Source: a virus
Length of the DNA stretch: 20,103 bases
Strand: one strand, 5' to 3'
Virus record (IMG/VR): IMGVR_UViG_3300009320_000140
Location: 1 to 20,103 of that record
Within the stretch, counting starts at the first letter, position 1; each line of letters opens with the position of its first letter. A program made the position numbers and the translations under genes. Below the pieces are notes generated by a model. That model saw only the letters and a list, made by a program, of their open reading frames with translations. It was not told the origin of the DNA and did no database searches. This document shows positions 5,195-18,453 of this stretch, piece after piece.

Positions 5195-5458
5195 ATGACA
5201 ACAAGAGCAGAGAATGGATCGGAAATATTATACCAAGTAACAGGCAAAGTAGACTATGTGTTTAATCAAACACTAGAACAAGCAGGGCTATTTAAATTAA
5301 AAACAGCATCACCATCAGGAAATGTAAGCGTAAAATTCGAAGATGGCAGCACGGATATAGTAGATTGCGACAGGTTAGACGCAATGAACGCTAAAGTATT
5401 AATTGTATATAGTACAAATACAGATATATTAATTACTGATTTTGGGCTATACAAGTAA
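5195..5458 (+). CDS. Small protein of unknown function
   Basis: An 87-residue protein with no recognised family. It appears mostly beta: strands around residues 10-24 (EILYQVTGKVDYVFN), 31-50, and a C-terminal pair with KVLIVYSTNTDILITDFGLYK. It is separated from the preceding gene by 11 bases and is the last gene before the promoter-like gap. The GKVDYVFN string shares both protein and codon similarity with the C-terminus of the MuF-like protein. It may be a small head or head-tail component, but only its position suggests this. Confidence 0.6.
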   Translation: MTTRAENGSEILYQVTGKVDYVFNQTLEQAGLFKLKTASPSGNVSVKFEDGSTDIVDCDRLDAMNAKVLIVYSTNTDILITDFGLYK

Positions 5459-5488
5459 TGACATATGTCTAAATTCAATGACATATGT
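5457..5488 (+). repeat. Two 12-bp direct repeats, AATGACATATGT, 20 bp apart
   Basis: Exact copies lie at 5457-5468 and 5477-5488; the first overlaps the stop codon of the preceding gene. Each contains the 8-bp palindrome ACATATGT. The 20-bp period is about two helical turns, so two dimers could bind one DNA face. The pair lies just upstream of where the -33 region of the adjacent promoter would be, the expected place for a transcription activator. The sequence is seen directly; the operator role is inferred. Confidence 0.55.
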
Positions 5489-5512
5489 ATAATTACTTAA
5501 TATACAATGGAT

Positions 5513-5520
5513 TACATTTG
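5513..5520 (+). promoter_or_regulatory. Bacteroidota-type -7 promoter element for the capsid genes
   Basis: TACATTTG at 5513-5520 matches the Bacteroidota consensus TAnnTTTG exactly and lies in the largest intergenic gap, 43 bases before the protease start. A TTG-type -33 element at the usual 17-23 base spacing is not visible, so basal activity may be low and depend on a factor bound at the direct repeats upstream. The leader 5521-5562 is AT-rich and lacks a Shine-Dalgarno sequence. Confidence 0.55.
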
Positions 5521-5562
5521 AAAAACAGGATATAAATTAATAATTTTATACAAAATTTTAGT

Positions 5563-6696
5563 ATGGAATTAAAGTATTTTACAAATCAAGGCGAAGGAGT
5601 TTATGACATTTTATTAAGTGGCGTAGTTGGTCAAAAGATAGATGGCGATCAAATAGCGGCAGAGATAAAGTTTTTAAACGAAATTGGGGCAACTTTAATT
5701 CGAGAAAGAATTAATAGTGTAGGTGGCAATATAATAAACGGTATGTCTATTATAGCAGCAAACATAGAAAGTAAAGCAGAAATACATACTATAAACGAAG
5801 GGATGGCAGGAAGTATAGCAAATGTGATTCTTACTACAGGAAATAAAAGAATCTCATATGATTACGGACTGGGCGTAATTCATAATCCATCATACAACGG
5901 CATTTCATTAAATGACATGGATGACGGAAAAGGAAAGGATAATGCAGTAAAATTCAAAAATTCAATACTCGACATATACACAAATAATACAAGCATGACG
6001 AGAAGTGTAGCTTCTAAAAAAATGGATGAAGATATACTTTTAAGTTCTGCCGAAATGCTAGAACTGGGAATGATTGATGAAATAGCTAAAAGTAAATCAA
6101 AACCTGCAATAACTAAAAATATGTCATACGTTGACATAATGAATATATGTAACGATAAAAGTAAATTTATAGATAAACCAAAAATTAACAAAATGAGCGA
6201 TTTAACAAAATTTTTCAATTTAACCGATGAGGCTAACGAAACCGCTATCCTTAAAGCAGCTCAGAAGGATAGGAGTGAATTGAAATTAGCCAAAAATCAA
6301 ATTTCTGCTTTGGAAAAAACCAAAGGGGAAAAAGACACTGAGATCAATAACCTAAAAGAAGAAGTGAAAACTTTTAAAAATCAAGCCATTGAGAGTTATG
6401 TAAATGCTCAAATAGAAATAGGCATGTTTTTAGAAGAAAACAAAGAAAGTGTTATTGAAAATGCCACTAAAATAGGGCTTGAAGCTTTTAGGGCTATCGT
6501 GGATGGAATGCCGAAAAAACCTGCTAATGTTTTAAATCAAATCAATAACAACGCAGGAGAGCCAAAAAAAACAACTGACGAGAAATTAAAAGAAGAATAT
6601 CAAAACTTGTGTGAAAACGATTCTATTGAATTAAAAAGGATTAAAACCGAAGAGAAAGCAAGATTTGACAAAATGTTTAACGCTTGGAATAAATAA
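5563..6696 (+). CDS. Head maturation protease (ClpP-like, S14) fused to scaffold domain
   Basis: A 377-residue protein that combines a serine protease of the ClpP fold with a scaffold, as Mu gpI and related prohead proteases do. It shapes the procapsid and then degrades the scaffold. The N-terminal 180 residues are ClpP-like: the oxyanion region INSVGGNI (50-57), nucleophile Ser84 in GMAGSIANVI, His107 in GVIHNPS, and Asp157 in DEDILLSSAEMLELGMIDEI, which aligns with the ClpP catalytic Asp. Residues 211-377 are helical and highly charged, with a coiled coil around 235-275. The spacing of Met211 after a Lys-rich linker suggests an internal scaffold start. It is the first gene after the putative promoter and precedes the decoration and capsid genes. 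Confidence 0.9.
   Translation: MELKYFTNQGEGVYDILLSGVVGQKIDGDQIAAEIKFLNEIGATLIRERINSVGGNIINGMSIIAANIESKAEIHTINEGMAGSIANVILTTGNKRISYDYGLGVIHNPSYNGISLNDMDDGKGKDNAVKFKNSILDIYTNNTSMTRSVASKKMDEDILLSSAEMLELGMIDEIAKSKSKPAITKNMSYVDIMNICNDKSKFIDKPKINKMSDLTKFFNLTDEANETAILKAAQKDRSELKLAKNQISALEKTKGEKDTEINNLKEEVKTFKNQAIESYVNAQIEIGMFLEENKESVIENATKIGLEAFRAIVDGMPKKPANVLNQINNNAGEPKKTTDEKLKEEYQNLCENDSIELKRIKTEEKARFDKMFNAWNK
6193..6696 (+). other. Possible internal start producing a free scaffold protein
   Basis: An in-frame ATG at 6193-6195 (Met211) falls exactly at the boundary between protease and scaffold and begins MSDLTKFFNLTDEANETAI, a natural-looking N-terminus. The preceding bases are A-rich (aaaattaacaaa), like other starts in this operon. 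Mu makes scaffold Z from within gene I, and lambda makes Nu3 from within C in the same way. The product would be 167 residues. This is inferred by analogy, not shown by the sequence. Confidence 0.4.
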
Positions 6697-6704
6697 TTAC
6701 AGAT

Positions 6705-7280
6705 ATGCCAGAACCAGCAACAATAAGACAACCTTTTGGAACTAGTGGAACAAATCAACTACCACTTACTACATTAGGAACAGGAACAGCGGCAACAGGA
6801 GTTACAGCCGTTGAGTACGGAGACGGAGTAAACCACAAAACCGTATTAACAGTAAGTACGACATTAGGCGCAATAGCGGGAGGTGCAAACCTTGGGCTAG
6901 GCACATTAATGTACACCCTACCCGCAGGGGCACATGTAATCAATTCTGCCTATATGAGTATGGCACTAACGGCAGCAGATGGAAATATTGACGCAGATAC
7001 GCCAGATGTAGGTATCGGAACAGTAGTTGCAAGCGGAGCGGTGGCAGTATTGAGCGGAACAGCAACGTTTGAAAATATTATAACAGGACAAACCGCAACA
7101 AACTGCACAGGAACGGCATCAATTAAGACTACCGCACCAACAGCAGGTACGGGACTTGCTATTGAAGCAGCAGCAGCGCACACTGTTTACTTTAACGTAG
7201 CAGACGGATGGGCAGCATCAGGTGAAGCAGCTTGTCCAATTTCAGGTACAATCACTATCGAATGGACAACTTTAGCGTAA
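6705..7280 (+). CDS. Putative capsid decoration protein
   Basis: A 191-residue protein, rich in Ala, Thr and Gly and nearly free of charged residues, with an apparent all-beta pattern (VEYGDGVNHKTVLTVSTTLG; the closing strand pair ends in GTITIEWTTLA). It lies between the protease/scaffold and the major capsid gene, where head decoration or stabilisation proteins usually lie. The N-terminal 35 residues (Pro, Gly and Thr-rich) look flexible. I do not recognise a named family. It is in the same short transcription unit as the capsid gene, consistent with high-copy expression. Codon use is strongly biased to GCA/ACA/GGA. Confidence 0.6.
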   Translation: MPEPATIRQPFGTSGTNQLPLTTLGTGTAATGVTAVEYGDGVNHKTVLTVSTTLGAIAGGANLGLGTLMYTLPAGAHVINSAYMSMALTAADGNIDADTPDVGIGTVVASGAVAVLSGTATFENIITGQTATNCTGTASIKTTAPTAGTGLAIEAAAAHTVYFNVADGWAASGEAACPISGTITIEWTTLA

Positions 7281-7301
7281 AAAATTAAAAAATAAGATAA
7301 C

Positions 7302-8243
7302 ATGGCACAAATAAATCCAATTAAATTTTCAAAAGAGCTACAAAAGCAGCTATTCCCTGATAATTCTTTTTACAAGAAATCAAGGACAGAAACAGGTATA
7401 GGCGCAAGCGTTGAAACTGTAGAGATACCTGTTTCTGGGGACGTAGGAGCAGCAAAAAGCGGAAACCCAACACTACCACTAGCTATTAACACTAGGACAG
7501 ATACGAAAAAATCATATCCAGTTGAACAGCTGTACACGAACCCGTACTTAGTTACCAGAGAAGAGGATATTGTATTAAATTACAGTAAATTCACAGACCT
7601 TGCTAATTCTTTAGCTATGTCGCTGAATACAAGGGCGGCTAATATAGCAGCTACAGAATGGGGAGCAACTTTATCAACAAACATAGTAAGAACTACAGGA
7701 AGTACAGGTAGGTCAACGGCAGTGACTGGAACAACTGGAAATAGAAAGCCGATCGTAAAAGCAAACATGCTAGATGTTAGGAACTTGTTTAATAGAATGA
7801 ACTTACCAGACATGGGAAGGGGTTCGATATGGGGAATCCTTACCCCTGATATGGTGGACGATCTACTTAATATCAATGAGTTTGTTGATTCTGACAAAAC
7901 AGGCGAATTATCTAAGTTAAAAAATGGAGAAATTGGCTATATATTAGGCATGAATCTATTAATGAGAAACAACGATGTAGGCTCAACTGGAATTATGTAT
8001 AATGTTGATGCAACCACAAAAAGAACAGTTGACGAAACACTAGCAACTACCGATAATGCAGCGGCTATTTTCTTTCATAAATCAATGGTAAGACATGCCG
8101 AAGGGCATGCAGAGACTATTATTAATAGAAAACCTGCGGGATATTTAGGTGGAACTATTGTTGAATCAGTTGTAAGATTTGGAGCGACATATGACAGACC
8201 TGACCAAAAAGGAATTGTAGCTTTAGTAGAAACGAACGCATAA
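7302..8243 (+). CDS. Major capsid protein, HK97-fold
   Basis: A 313-residue protein placed and shaped like an HK97-fold capsid protein. Visible elements are an N-terminal helix (FSKELQKQLFPDN), a variable region 25-60 (VETVEIPVSGDVG) likely to form the E-loop, the long spine helix around residues 88-118 (DLANSLAMSLNTRAANIAATEW), a P-domain segment with GSIWGILTPDMVDDLLNIN, and a C-terminal strand pair (SVVRFGATYDRP). It lacks a long N-terminal delta domain, consistent with a separate scaffold domain on the protease gene. It is preceded by an A-rich leader and followed at once by a terminator hairpin, which fits a highly expressed unit. Confidence 0.87.
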   Translation: MAQINPIKFSKELQKQLFPDNSFYKKSRTETGIGASVETVEIPVSGDVGAAKSGNPTLPLAINTRTDTKKSYPVEQLYTNPYLVTREEDIVLNYSKFTDLANSLAMSLNTRAANIAATEWGATLSTNIVRTTGSTGRSTAVTGTTGNRKPIVKANMLDVRNLFNRMNLPDMGRGSIWGILTPDMVDDLLNINEFVDSDKTGELSKLKNGEIGYILGMNLLMRNNDVGSTGIMYNVDATTKRTVDETLATTDNAAAIFFHKSMVRHAEGHAETIINRKPAGYLGGTIVESVVRFGATYDRPDQKGIVALVETNA

Positions 8244-8265
8244 GGGAGGGTAAAACCTCCTTTTT
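8244..8265 (+). terminator. Rho-independent terminator after the capsid gene
   Basis: GGAGG (8245-8249), a six-base loop (8250-8255) and CCTCC (8256-8260) form a five-GC/AU-pair stem extendable by one G-T and A-T pairs, followed by five T (8261-8265). It begins one base after the capsid stop codon. Genes continue downstream on the same strand with no obvious new promoter, so it probably acts as a partial terminator or attenuator that lowers downstream tail mRNA relative to capsid mRNA. Confidence 0.75.
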
Positions 8266-10116: not shown

Positions 10117-10533
10117 ATGAGTCAACCATTAATAAACGGACAAGCATACGATTACGTGAGCATTACGCCACTAGCTTTAGGTGTTCCATTACCTAGTATT
10201 TCGGCTATAAATTATACGTCAGAGCAGACTAAGGAGAATAATTACGGAACAGGCAACGAGCCAGTTTCGAGAGGTAGGGGCGCAAAAACTTACACCGCAT
10301 CGTTTGATATATCAATGAACGATACAGAAGCCTTAAGGGACGCAGCACCAAACGGTAATTTATTAGACATTCCTCCTTTTGATTTTGTGATAGTTTTTGG
10401 AAATCCTCAAAAGCCAGTAACTCACATTATTAAAAATTTTGAATTTTCAGACGATGGAGTAGAGACAACACAAGGAGATACTGATATAAAGAGAACTTTC
10501 ACGGGCACACCTTCACATATAAAATATAGATAA
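10117..10533 (+). CDS. Tail tube protein
   Basis: A 138-residue, beta-rich protein directly after the sheath gene, the standard place for the tube protein of contractile tails (Mu gpM type). Consistent features are the loop with YTSEQTKENNYGTGNEPVSRGRG (about 29-51), which resembles the 'G.g.epvg...G' turn of tube proteins, and the paired strands KTYTASFDISMND and FDFVIVFGN. The closing region, HIIKNFEFSDDGVETTQGDTD, looks like the final sheet strand before a disordered end. It starts five bases after the sheath stop; its stop overlaps the chaperone ATG by one base (TAATG). Confidence 0.78.
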   Translation: MSQPLINGQAYDYVSITPLALGVPLPSISAINYTSEQTKENNYGTGNEPVSRGRGAKTYTASFDISMNDTEALRDAAPNGNLLDIPPFDFVIVFGNPQKPVTHIIKNFEFSDDGVETTQGDTDIKRTFTGTPSHIKYR

Positions 10534-10910
10534 TGGATAAAGCAGTAAGGATAGAAGAAAGGAAAAGCGACATTTATACTTTCGAGTTTGGTAACGATGA
10601 TTTGAAAAAAGAAATATCTTTGCTTAATCTTAAAAAAGATGCTGAAAAAATAGCAGAACTAGAGGGTAAATTTAAAACTTACAAATACGAAATACAAGAA
10701 CCTCAATTCGATCAGTTAGTTGCGGCATTAGGTGAACTTTACGATTCTAAAGGTAGGTTAAGTTTAGCCACAGCAGGAAAAGTAATATGGGAATTATGCT
10801 GCGTGGAATTCGACCCTATAATTGAGGAGAATCCAAAAATATTACTTTTAGTGTGTCAAAGATTATCCGAATATGTTTTGCCTTTAGATATCGAAATAAA
10901 AAAAAAGTAA
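10533..10910 (+). CDS. Tail assembly chaperone, short form (gpG-type)
   Basis: A 125-residue, charged, mostly helical protein that lies between the tube and tape measure genes, the place of the tail assembly chaperone in most long-tailed phages. Such proteins coat the tape measure and recruit tube subunits, and are not part of the finished tail. The reading frame ends ATA AAA AAA AAG TAA, so the last sense codons form the slippery heptamer A AAA AAG at 10901-10907. The short form ends at TAA (10908-10910); a -1 slip would yield the long form. Confidence 0.78.
   Translation: MDKAVRIEERKSDIYTFEFGNDDLKKEISLLNLKKDAEKIAELEGKFKTYKYEIQEPQFDQLVAALGELYDSKGRLSLATAGKVIWELCCVEFDPIIEENPKILLLVCQRLSEYVLPLDIEIKKK
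10901..10907 (+). promoter_or_regulatory. Programmed -1 frameshift slippery site A AAA AAG
   Basis: The heptamer is the one used by E. coli dnaX, here at the end of a nine-A run and in the correct phase (preceding base, then AAA AAG). The zero-frame stop follows immediately. A 15-bp hairpin (10934-10948 with 10959-10973) starts 26 bases downstream; this spacing is longer than the usual 5-9 bases, so its stimulatory role is uncertain. Confidence 0.72.
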
Positions 10911-11101
10911 TTCTTTATAAGCACAATAGTGAAAATATAGGATTAAGGCAAAAAATGGCTTTAATCCTATATTATTTTAAACAGGATATAATGAAAAGCA
11001 AATCACCAGTAGACGACTTAGCAAGATATTGGAATGATTTGATTTATTTATCAAAACAAGGGATTATACCGATTGCCCAACTACCTTTAAAATTTGAATA
11101 A
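10907..11101 (+). CDS. Tail assembly chaperone extension made by -1 frameshift (gpGT-type)
   Basis: After a -1 slip on A AAA AAG, reading continues GTA ATT CTT..., giving 64 further residues and a fusion of 189 residues. The extension includes KMALILYYFKQDIM and DDLARYWNDLIYLSKQGII, a typical helical T-domain. Read alone, this frame has no convincing start: the only upstream candidate is a GTG at 10853, deep in the short form. The stop is directly followed by the tape measure ATG. Lambda makes G and GT by the same logic, in the same position. Confidence 0.75.
   Translation, partial: VILYKHNSENIGLRQKMALILYYFKQDIMKSKSPVDDLARYWNDLIYLSKQGIIPIAQLPLKFE
10934..10973 (+). promoter_or_regulatory. 15-bp RNA hairpin inside the frameshift extension
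   Basis: AATATAGGATTAA (10934-10946) pairs exactly with TTAATCCTATATT (10961-10973); the stem gains a G-T and a G-C pair inward, leaving the ten-base loop CAAAAAATGG. No T run follows, so it is not an intrinsic terminator. It lies in coding DNA and could slow ribosomes near the frameshift or block an internal start, since an in-frame ATG lies in the loop. Confidence 0.65.
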
Positions 11102-14551: not shown

Positions 14552-14860
14552 ATGGTAACAGTTCAGAAAGGTCAAAGCATGACAGACATAACGTTGCAAG
14601 AATTTGGGACTTTAAATTATTTAATTCAAGTTTCAATGGATAATAACATTTCCATATCCGACCAACTAGAAACCAAACAGCAACTAATAATTAATAATAA
14701 GGGATTAGGGAATCAGGAAATAAAAGATTATTACAGCTTAAATTCCATAAAGCCTAATAATGATTTTGTTAATGTACAGAAAATAGTTAACTTTGTCTTT
14801 GATGATGAGGGCAATAACTTTATATTTGATGATGAGGGCAATAACTTTATATTTGACTAA
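14552..14860 (+). CDS. LysM-like tail protein (gpX type) with a repeat tail
   Basis: A 102-residue protein. The first 47 residues fit a LysM-like fold (MVTVQKGQSMTDITLQEFG, then LIQVSMDNNISISDQLETKQQLII), as in tail protein X of P2-type phages, which binds the baseplate or tape measure region. The middle is a linker with polar residues. The C-terminus carries FDDEGNNFI in two full copies plus a final FD, preceded by a related NFV. The exact repeat shows that the tail has recently been extended. It starts two bases after the wedge stop, and its TAA directly abuts the ATG of the next gene. Confidence 0.7.
   Translation: MVTVQKGQSMTDITLQEFGTLNYLIQVSMDNNISISDQLETKQQLIINNKGLGNQEIKDYYSLNSIKPNNDFVNVQKIVNFVFDDEGNNFIFDDEGNNFIFD
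14798..14856 (+). repeat. Perfect 27-bp tandem repeat encoding FDDEGNNFI
   Basis: The unit at 14798-14824 is repeated without a mismatch at 14825-14851, and a five-base partial third copy (TTTGA) follows just before the stop. The period is nine codons. Perfect identity indicates a recent or still active length change, as by slippage. Confidence 0.92.
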
Positions 14861-16410: not shown

Positions 16411-16411
16411 T

Positions 16412-16524
16412 ATGTTTTGGTGTCCTCTCTGGCAATGAATTTGATAAAGGTTCATATACATGTAAAAAAAGTGTGGGACACAGGAACAGAGTTAACAACA
16501 TTAGATTTTTATTTATGGCAATAG
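16412..16524 (+). other. Gap holding two tiny coupled ORFs (8 and 29 codons)
   Basis: ATG 16412 opens eight sense codons (MFWCPLWQ) ending in TGA at 16436-16438. This overlaps ATG 16435 in ATGA form; the second ORF has 29 sense codons and ends in TAG at 16522-16524, one base before the tailspike start. Both peptides end in LWQ. The stop-start spacing matches the rest of the operon, so at least the 29-codon ORF may be translated, if only to couple ribosomes into the tailspike gene. No promoter or terminator is evident here. Confidence 0.35.
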
Positions 16525-16525
16525 T

Positions 16526-18382
16526 ATGTTAAATATACACGGAAATTTAAATATAGCACAAAGGAAAGGCGACAGACCCCCTTTTTACGATGATTTAAGC
16601 CTGTTTTATACAAGACGGGAAGGTTTAAACCTAATCGAGTCTAAAGAAGGGTTAGACGCTAAAATTCTACCTAGCATTGCTTTTATAAACGGTACCTCAT
16701 ATTTATCTAAATCATTAGTTTCATTTGCCGCATCTGATTCAAGTGGATACGTAGAAGCATATGTATATGTAGATCAAGCAACGCTAATTGATGTATTTTC
16801 TTCATGTGACCCTGCCAGAACAACAAGGTACTTTGCGTTTTTTATAAATGCAGCTGGAAACGCTTATATCACAGCTAGAGAACCAGGTGTCGGAACTCCA
16901 TTTTCCAACACGTATCTAACAGATGATGCAATAAGCGTAGGTTGGCATAAAATTAAATGGGCTAGCAATGGCAGTTCTTATACTATTTATGTAGATGATA
17001 TTGCCGTAGGTGGATCTGGCTCAAACAATGGCGAATGGTTAGGAGATGTAAGTGCATCTTTTAGAAATAATATAAGTATTGGGGCGCTAATTACATCAAG
17101 TCCACGGATTTCAACTAATGGTAATATTGCATGGGTAAAATACAACAATGGTACAGACGTTGTTAATCAATGGATATTAACAGGTTATGGGATTAATGAA
17201 TACGACAATATAGGAACAACCCACGTTCCTTGGGTTAATGCTCCTTCTAATAAATATGGAATTGAAGGGTCTCAGGAGTTGTTGGATAATGGATTTTCGG
17301 AATGGAGAAAAGCAGGAGCATTAAATGAATATGTTCCTTATAAAAACGGATCACCACAAACTCAATTTGATGAGCTTTTAGGGTACGTAAAAAACTCTGA
17401 TAACGAAGGAAGTACAAACAAGTATAATTTTGCCCCCTCTTTAGTTGATTTTGATTATACAGACACTACAAATATATTATTGTCACAATTTGATAAATCA
17501 AATGCTACCATACATATTACAACCGGCAGTATGAATTATTATGATGCCGCTATGCCTTATGGGTGGAGGCAAGACGAATTAAATCACCCTCGCATATACT
17601 CCACTACATATAAAAACAATACATACAGGGGAATGTTATATGTGAAGGGATTAGTTAGCGGCAATAATGTAATAAACTCAGATCAAATATTAGTTTATTC
17701 GTCTGATTACGAAGGATTGAATCAATACACAATTGCTAAGTATTGTGGATTGGATGGTATTGTAATAAAATCTGGCGGTGTTCCTGTTTATGATTCTGAT
17801 GGATATTTAACATATTTATACAATGAACCGGTTAGCAGTTCATTAGCTATTGGGCTAGTTGGAGATAGTATTATGGTTGGAATCGTGCCATTTTGGAACT
17901 ACACAGCATTTACAAAGATTAATATTGCAAATATCGGTGATGAAATATCCTTACAGGAGGCAGCTTGGAACGCTTTAACAACCATACAACAGCAATCATT
18001 TGATTATGTTCTAATACAATTAGGACTTAATGACTTGGGTAATTCTGTTAGTGGATTTACATCTGATTATCAATCTTTAGTTACACAAATAGAAACGGAC
18101 ACAAAGGCAGGATGTAAGATTGTGGCGGGAAACATGACCCCTGTAGATGGTTTTTTTGAAAATCCAACAACGTTAGCGATATGGCAAGGAGATAATGAGG
18201 CAATAAATGGAGCAGGAGTGTACGCAATATCTGATATTGATATTGCTTTAGTAGAAAATAATACAGATTTAAACGACGGAAGCGATGCGCTTAAAAGCGA
18301 ATACGACTCAGGCGATCATTTGCACCCGAATGAAACGGGGTACAAAGTACTTTTTAATAACTTTTTAAAAGAAATAAAATAA
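16526..18382 (+). CDS. Tailspike with LamG-like domain and SGNH/GDSL esterase domain
   Basis: A 618-residue protein. Residues about 50-215 look like a concanavalin A/LamG-like beta sandwich (SSGYVEAYVYVD, then GWHKIKWASNGSSYTIYVDD), which often binds glycans. Residues 436-618 form an SGNH hydrolase: block I GDS at 446-448 with nucleophile Ser448, block II Gly471, block III GLND at 500-503 and block V DHLHP at 597-601 with Asp597 and His600. Such tailspike esterases remove acyl groups from host surface polysaccharide. The region between, 220-435, is beta-rich and ends in KNNTYRGMLYVKG. The start follows the small ORFs by one base. Substrate is unknown. Confidence 0.83.
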   Translation: MLNIHGNLNIAQRKGDRPPFYDDLSLFYTRREGLNLIESKEGLDAKILPSIAFINGTSYLSKSLVSFAASDSSGYVEAYVYVDQATLIDVFSSCDPARTTRYFAFFINAAGNAYITAREPGVGTPFSNTYLTDDAISVGWHKIKWASNGSSYTIYVDDIAVGGSGSNNGEWLGDVSASFRNNISIGALITSSPRISTNGNIAWVKYNNGTDVVNQWILTGYGINEYDNIGTTHVPWVNAPSNKYGIEGSQELLDNGFSEWRKAGALNEYVPYKNGSPQTQFDELLGYVKNSDNEGSTNKYNFAPSLVDFDYTDTTNILLSQFDKSNATIHITTGSMNYYDAAMPYGWRQDELNHPRIYSTTYKNNTYRGMLYVKGLVSGNNVINSDQILVYSSDYEGLNQYTIAKYCGLDGIVIKSGGVPVYDSDGYLTYLYNEPVSSSLAIGLVGDSIMVGIVPFWNYTAFTKINIANIGDEISLQEAAWNALTTIQQQSFDYVLIQLGLNDLGNSVSGFTSDYQSLVTQIETDTKAGCKIVAGNMTPVDGFFENPTTLAIWQGDNEAINGAGVYAISDIDIALVENNTDLNDGSDALKSEYDSGDHLHPNETGYKVLFNNFLKEIK

Positions 18383-18384
18383 TT

Positions 18385-18453
18385 ATGAAAAACAGGAAAA
18401 CAGATCCGCCAGAGGAAATAGAACCACCTGGAGGAATACCGCCAAAAACATGA
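18385..18453 (+). CDS. Tiny proline-rich ORF (22 residues)
   Basis: ATG 18385 opens 22 sense codons, a basic start MKNRKTDPP followed by EEIEPPGGIPPKT, ending in TGA at 18451-18453. The stop overlaps the ATG of the next gene as ATGA, and the start lies two bases after the tailspike stop. Six of 22 residues are proline. The tight packing on both sides supports translation. It could be a true micropeptide or only a coupling leader for the lysis cassette. Confidence 0.45.
   Translation: MKNRKTDPPEEIEPPGGIPPKT

Follow-up and report, generated by a model that had tools for sequence, protein, structure and literature searches.

A putative activator-dependent late promoter and leaky terminator bracketing the capsid cassette of a Mu-like phage from a likely Bacteroidota host

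Do the capsid genes of a Mu-like phage form a transcription unit with a promoter and terminator of their own, as an earlier note on this DNA had proposed? The stretch analysed, referred to here as the window, is a 20.1-kb viral record carrying a Mu-like head and tail module in which profile matches identify a Mu-type portal, a Mu F-like protein, a head maturation protease, a major capsid protein, a DUF2586 sheath-type protein, a tape measure protein and an amidase. Because relatives of the capsid protein are found in phages of Porphyromonas and Flavobacterium and in prophage-like loci of Marinifilum, Massilibacteroides, Mariniphaga and other Bacteroidales, the host is likely to belong to the Bacteroidota. 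In what follows we set out why we consider it probable, from sequence and its comparison across relatives, that an activator-dependent late promoter and a partial terminator bracket a conserved capsid cassette.

The cassette comprises three plus-strand genes. The first (5563-6696) encodes a head maturation protease of the ClpP/S14 type with a C-terminal scaffold part (Pfam CLP_protease, 6e-18; PHROG head maturation protease) and the third (7302-8243) the major capsid protein (PHROG 267 major head protein, 8e-20), whose phage relatives are annotated as major capsid proteins. Between them lies a decoration-protein candidate (6705-7280) that is conserved in L003-L010 and has no family match in Pfam or PHROG. 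This order of protease, small decoration candidate and capsid gene is kept among the relatives while the neighbours vary: in the window's clade these are same-strand connector genes and the DUF2586 sheath-type gene, whilst in a group of probably transposable phages they are reversed terminase genes and other genes, with no DUF2586 found. In the phage lotta8-1 the small middle gene is missing. DUF2586 marks the sheath-type gene in both the window's clade and lotta8-1; PF04984, tried as an alternative sheath marker, gave an empty search. Within the protease gene, an in-frame ATG in an A-rich context (6193) stands where the scaffold part begins; 23 of 24 relatives have a methionine at or adjoining this position, which suggests that a scaffold gene is nested here as it is in Mu I/Z. 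The protease ORFs of L005 (3690-5399) and L006 (3694-5400) are longer, by some 85 residues at the N-terminus and by an insert of about 110 that separates the protease and scaffold parts.

Upstream of the protease gene is a gap of 104 bp (5459-5562), and the direct-repeat pair that the earlier note had placed here is borne out. Two copies of AATGACATATGT, identical at 12 of 12 positions, 20 bp apart and each containing the palindrome ACATATGT, form tandem operator-like sites on the plus strand at 5457-5468 (site 1) and 5477-5488 (site 2), the latter overlapping a TGTATAA (5486-5492) that is conserved in the clade. No other exact 12-mer in the window is repeated at a distance of 18-24 bp, and a comparable repeat arises in 0.13% of dinucleotide-shuffled gaps. 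Located 36 bp from the start of the second copy is TACATTTG (5513-5520, plus strand), the predicted -7 element of a sigma-A type promoter. The perfect TAnnTTTG match claimed for this position is indeed present but is not significant by itself, such a match being found in 10.7% of shuffled gaps and the window holding 33 matches against 30 expected. Promoters recognised by sigma-A in the Bacteroidota combine TAnnTTTG at -12 to -5 with TTTG near -33. In the window the canonical -33 TTTG is absent at the right distance, and the positions 17-24 bp before 5513 hold no TTG either. Counting from a -7 box placed at -12 to -5, as mapped in Flavobacterium psychrophilum (PMC9723704), the predicted start falls near 5525, sites 1 and 2 span about -68 to -57 and -48 to -37, and their centres lie at about -62 and -42. 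The predicted 5′ leader (5525-5562, plus strand) carries a AATTTTATACAAAATTTTAGT before the ATG that is conserved in the alignment. A -33 box is not always detectable within the Bacteroidota (PMC7366714), and repeats at -62 and -42 without a -33 TTG would be the layout of an activator-dependent promoter. A scan for E. coli sigma-70 promoters gave no excess over shuffles.

Comparison within the window's clade (L005-L008, capsid identity 79-81% to the window) shows which parts of this layout are kept. The corresponding gaps hold GTATAA, exactly 20 bases and then TAATTTTG (L005, L006) or TAAATTTT (L007, L008), followed by a similarly retained AATTTTATA(C/A)AAAATTT-like leader. With up to one mismatch allowed, TGTATAA-N20-TAnnTTTG occurs once per contig in G001-G004 (contigs of 19-50 kb), solely before the protease gene. 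In L006 TGTATAA recurs 20 bp further upstream, and a second repeat copy is not clear in L005 and L007. The window's own repeat sequence is found in IMG/VR only in near-identical contigs and in one unrelated contig, where it forms a tandem array (L044). When the repeats alone are set against shuffles of each relative, significance is clear in the window only and borderline elsewhere; the fixed-spacing test is the more informative of the two.

Evidence for a separate transcript comes from relatives with 27-48% identity, in which the upstream neighbours lie on the opposite strand, these being terminase genes or, in lotta8-1, other minus-strand genes; the same holds for L010 (69% identity). Reversed upstream genes are seen in L010, L011, L016-L030, L032-L036 and L041, and since they run the opposite way, the protease gene must begin its own transcript in most of the distant relatives. 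A pair of genes matching MuA and MuB in size and position is present in several of these phages, and a Mu-transposase domain is detectable in one, for which reason they are probably transposable. At six loci (one of which, L032, is nearly the same as L017) the gap contains TTGGAC-N15-TTGGAC and, at a constant distance behind it, GACTTTTG or GACTTTTA. Each contig, those of 34-39 kb included, has a single exact tandem pair. The spacer between the tandem site and GACTTTTG is fixed at 29 bp in the transposable relatives, and the second site begins 36 bp before the -7 box, exactly as in the window. The 36-bp spacing recurs with altered letters in L021, L022, L026 and L027 and, more weakly, in L029. 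L030 carries a mirrored site: the operator stands at the same spacing to GACTTTTG on either strand, facing both divergent genes; with that exception, a test for a minus-strand (terminase-side) promoter was not significant.

The p-values attached to these spacings are descriptive only, because members of one clade are not independent of one another (nor are all the distant loci) and the motif letters were picked by inspection before counting. Less affected by both are the hairpin comparison described below and a scan of the whole IMG/VR collection for TTGGAC-N14-16-TTGGAC-N28-30-GACTTTTG, in which all six matches (L016, L018, L020 and three further contigs) lie before a capsid cassette.

At the other end of the cassette, an intrinsic-terminator-like hairpin with a T-run (8242-8265, plus strand) overlaps the TAA stop of the capsid gene. 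The hairpin itself, AAGGGAGG-GTAAAA-CCTCCTTT at 8242-8263, has a folding energy of -11.8 kcal/mol (z -3.3) and qualifies as a GC-rich hairpin. The claim of a terminator with five T's directly after the capsid stop needs qualifying: a hairpin is there, but it overlaps the stop codon, and three of the five T's (8261-8265) can pair within an 8-bp stem, leaving TT and then AAAAA beyond the full stem. A generic terminator consensus scan of the window did not list it. The terminator in the window's clade is short and hence probably leaky: few T's are left free, and its stem reaches the stop codon, so that a ribosome could hinder it. Partial termination is our best guess. In L005-L008 a different hairpin (GGGGC/GCCCC) occupies the same place, L009 has AAGGAGG/CCTCCTT after its capsid gene and the distant relatives have strong post-capsid hairpins with T-runs, among them textbook terminators in L016, L023, L030, L031 and L033. 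The sequences of these hairpins are unrelated among loci. By a strict score, a hairpin with a T-rich tail follows 19 of 25 capsid ends, as against one of 23 protease ends (Fisher p = 2e-7) and 51 of 180 random stretches (p = 6e-6). The score failed in L005 and L006 (2-3 T's), L011, L034 and L035; in L010 and the P. gingivalis phage L034 no post-capsid hairpin was found.

It had also been suggested that the clearest signals in the window flank the capsid genes and that all other genes are packed with overlaps. The repeat pair is unique, as described, but the post-capsid hairpin is not the strongest post-gene hairpin, which lies at 10934-10973 (-19.5 kcal/mol) inside a frameshifted tail gene, and the packing claim does not stand, given intergenic stretches of 115 bp (16411-16525) and 67 bp (18383-18449). 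The 115-bp gap precedes a GDSL-lipase-like gene (16526-18382) and is a further possible regulatory site. The frameshifted gene belongs to a tail-assembly-chaperone-like pair (10533-11101) upstream of the tape measure gene, with a programmed frameshift. Its first ORF ends just past an A-run (10898-10906), and its second frame (10853-11101) encodes a protein conserved in L008 (72%), L005 (57%) and L010 (44%); in L008 and L005 stop codons precede the slip point. The 10934-10973 hairpin, a 16-bp inverted repeat less than 30 nt past the A-run, is possibly a frameshift stimulator. Elsewhere, a small protein of the baseplate region ends in a repeated FDDEGNNFIFD, encoded by a near-perfect 27-bp tandem repeat (14788-14860).

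Sequence and comparison establish the elements, their conserved spacing and unique position, and the conservation of the cassette; the way they act, including the timing, we infer as follows. The 5459-5562 gap would act as a late promoter, probably dependent on a phage-made activator, with two tandem operators, two DNA turns apart, ahead of the TACATTTG box. A transcript from near 5525 would cover all three genes of the cassette; the short hairpin would end part of these transcripts and the remainder would run on into the genes for sheath and tail, giving higher capsid mRNA and reduced tail mRNA. That the capsid genes are a unit with their own promoter and terminator, the central claim of the earlier note, is supported by the reversed neighbours, the conserved spacing and the post-capsid hairpins of the relatives. 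Judging by their association across genomes, both brackets appear to remain attached to the cassette as the modules around it change.

Several other explanations deserve consideration. The post-capsid hairpin might not terminate transcription but instead protect or define the 3′ end of an mRNA processed from a longer late transcript, a reading favoured by the window's clade, where stem and free T-run are short and L005 and L006 have very weak T-runs; the textbook terminators at the same place in five distant relatives make it rather unlikely. As to the upstream gap, the tandem sites might serve in gyrase binding, packaging or replication. Terminase small subunits bind DNA repeats close to their gene, and in the transposable relatives the site is central and adjoins a small HTH gene preceding terminase. 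Mu has a strong gyrase site near the genome centre at a similar junction, near genes G and I (PMC10052514). Against this stand the constant distance to a -7 box, a layout that points at the start of the gene and, in L030, its mirror image facing the opposite gene, and the C-terminal domain of Mu transposase was not found in the window's clade; we regard this explanation as improbable.

Still less probable is that the repeats act in RNA, with transcripts from upstream folding through AAGTAAT..ATTACTT and GACATATGTC pairing to end or attenuate the upstream unit. The segment is foldable (z -1.96), but no T-run follows the hairpin, which is lost in L005-L008 while GTATAA-N20-TAnnTTTG is kept. Chance resemblance in an AT-rich gap could account for the -7 box taken singly, expected in about 11% of such gaps; against the rarity of the exact repeat in shuffles, the conserved spacing and the recurrence across clades, it is hardly credible. 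We retain the promoter and partial terminator as the preferred reading.

Whether this arrangement is general is a more tentative matter. Possibly, Mu-like phages of the Bacteroidota share a hitherto undescribed late switch: a single tandem-operator promoter per genome, placed before the cassette (in transposable members, where the terminase and protease genes diverge) and served by a putative activator unrelated to Mor/C, the operator letters having changed between clades whilst spacing and position were kept. A candidate for such an activator in the transposable relatives is a small protein of about 65-88 amino acids encoded in the middle-gene region (L061:7193-7456, minus strand; homologues in L058, L062, L065, L066, L069, L070 and L073). 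Its AlphaFold model is helical (pLDDT 80) but matches no known fold (E >= 6.7), nor does the protein match any family; since the window's clade lacks it as well, it stays a lead.

No work on late promoters of Bacteroidota phages came up in our search of the open literature, and the present model, with its fixed spacing, conserved cassette and testable transcript ends, is a concrete one that could guide the design of phage-inducible expression parts for these bacteria. Among characterised systems, the Mu late-promoter parallel drawn in the earlier note holds for position: the C-dependent promoter PI precedes gene I (PMC4461284), and in both phages an activator-type site stands upstream of a promoter without a good upstream box, before the head protease/scaffold gene and amid Mu-like head genes. 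It does not extend to the activator, as no Mor/C homologue (PF08765) was found in any of 17 records, the window and several others being fragments. Moreover, Mu has four C-dependent promoters and the window phage and its relatives one site per contig, with tandem direct repeats and a Bacteroidota -7 box rather than a -10 box. Judged by membership, the window site is not a Mu C promoter: it is single and no Mor/C protein was found.

Compared with sigma-A promoters of the Bacteroidota, the window shares the -7 box, present at the same place in L005 and L006, but has tandem repeats at -68 to -37 in place of a TTTG or TTG at the usual -33 distance. The P. gingivalis transposable phages and the Flavobacterium phage lotta8-1 (Pippivirus) have homologous capsid proteins (27-31% identity) and a protease gene before the capsid gene, with opposite-strand genes just upstream; their upstream sequences and neighbouring modules differ from those of the window, and no hairpin follows the capsid gene of P. 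gingivalis phage 007a. For the terminator the closest likeness is T-phi of T7, the sole terminator for the phage polymerase, which lies right behind capsid gene 10, lowers downstream expression and leaves genes 11 and 12 to read-through (PMC5592923). T7 uses its own RNA polymerase, whereas here the host polymerase is presumably employed and the hairpin of the window's clade is much shorter. Taken together, capsid bracketing is likely to be a real variation on a known phage theme, in which the ideas behind Mu PI and T7 T-phi are combined in phages of the Bacteroidota.
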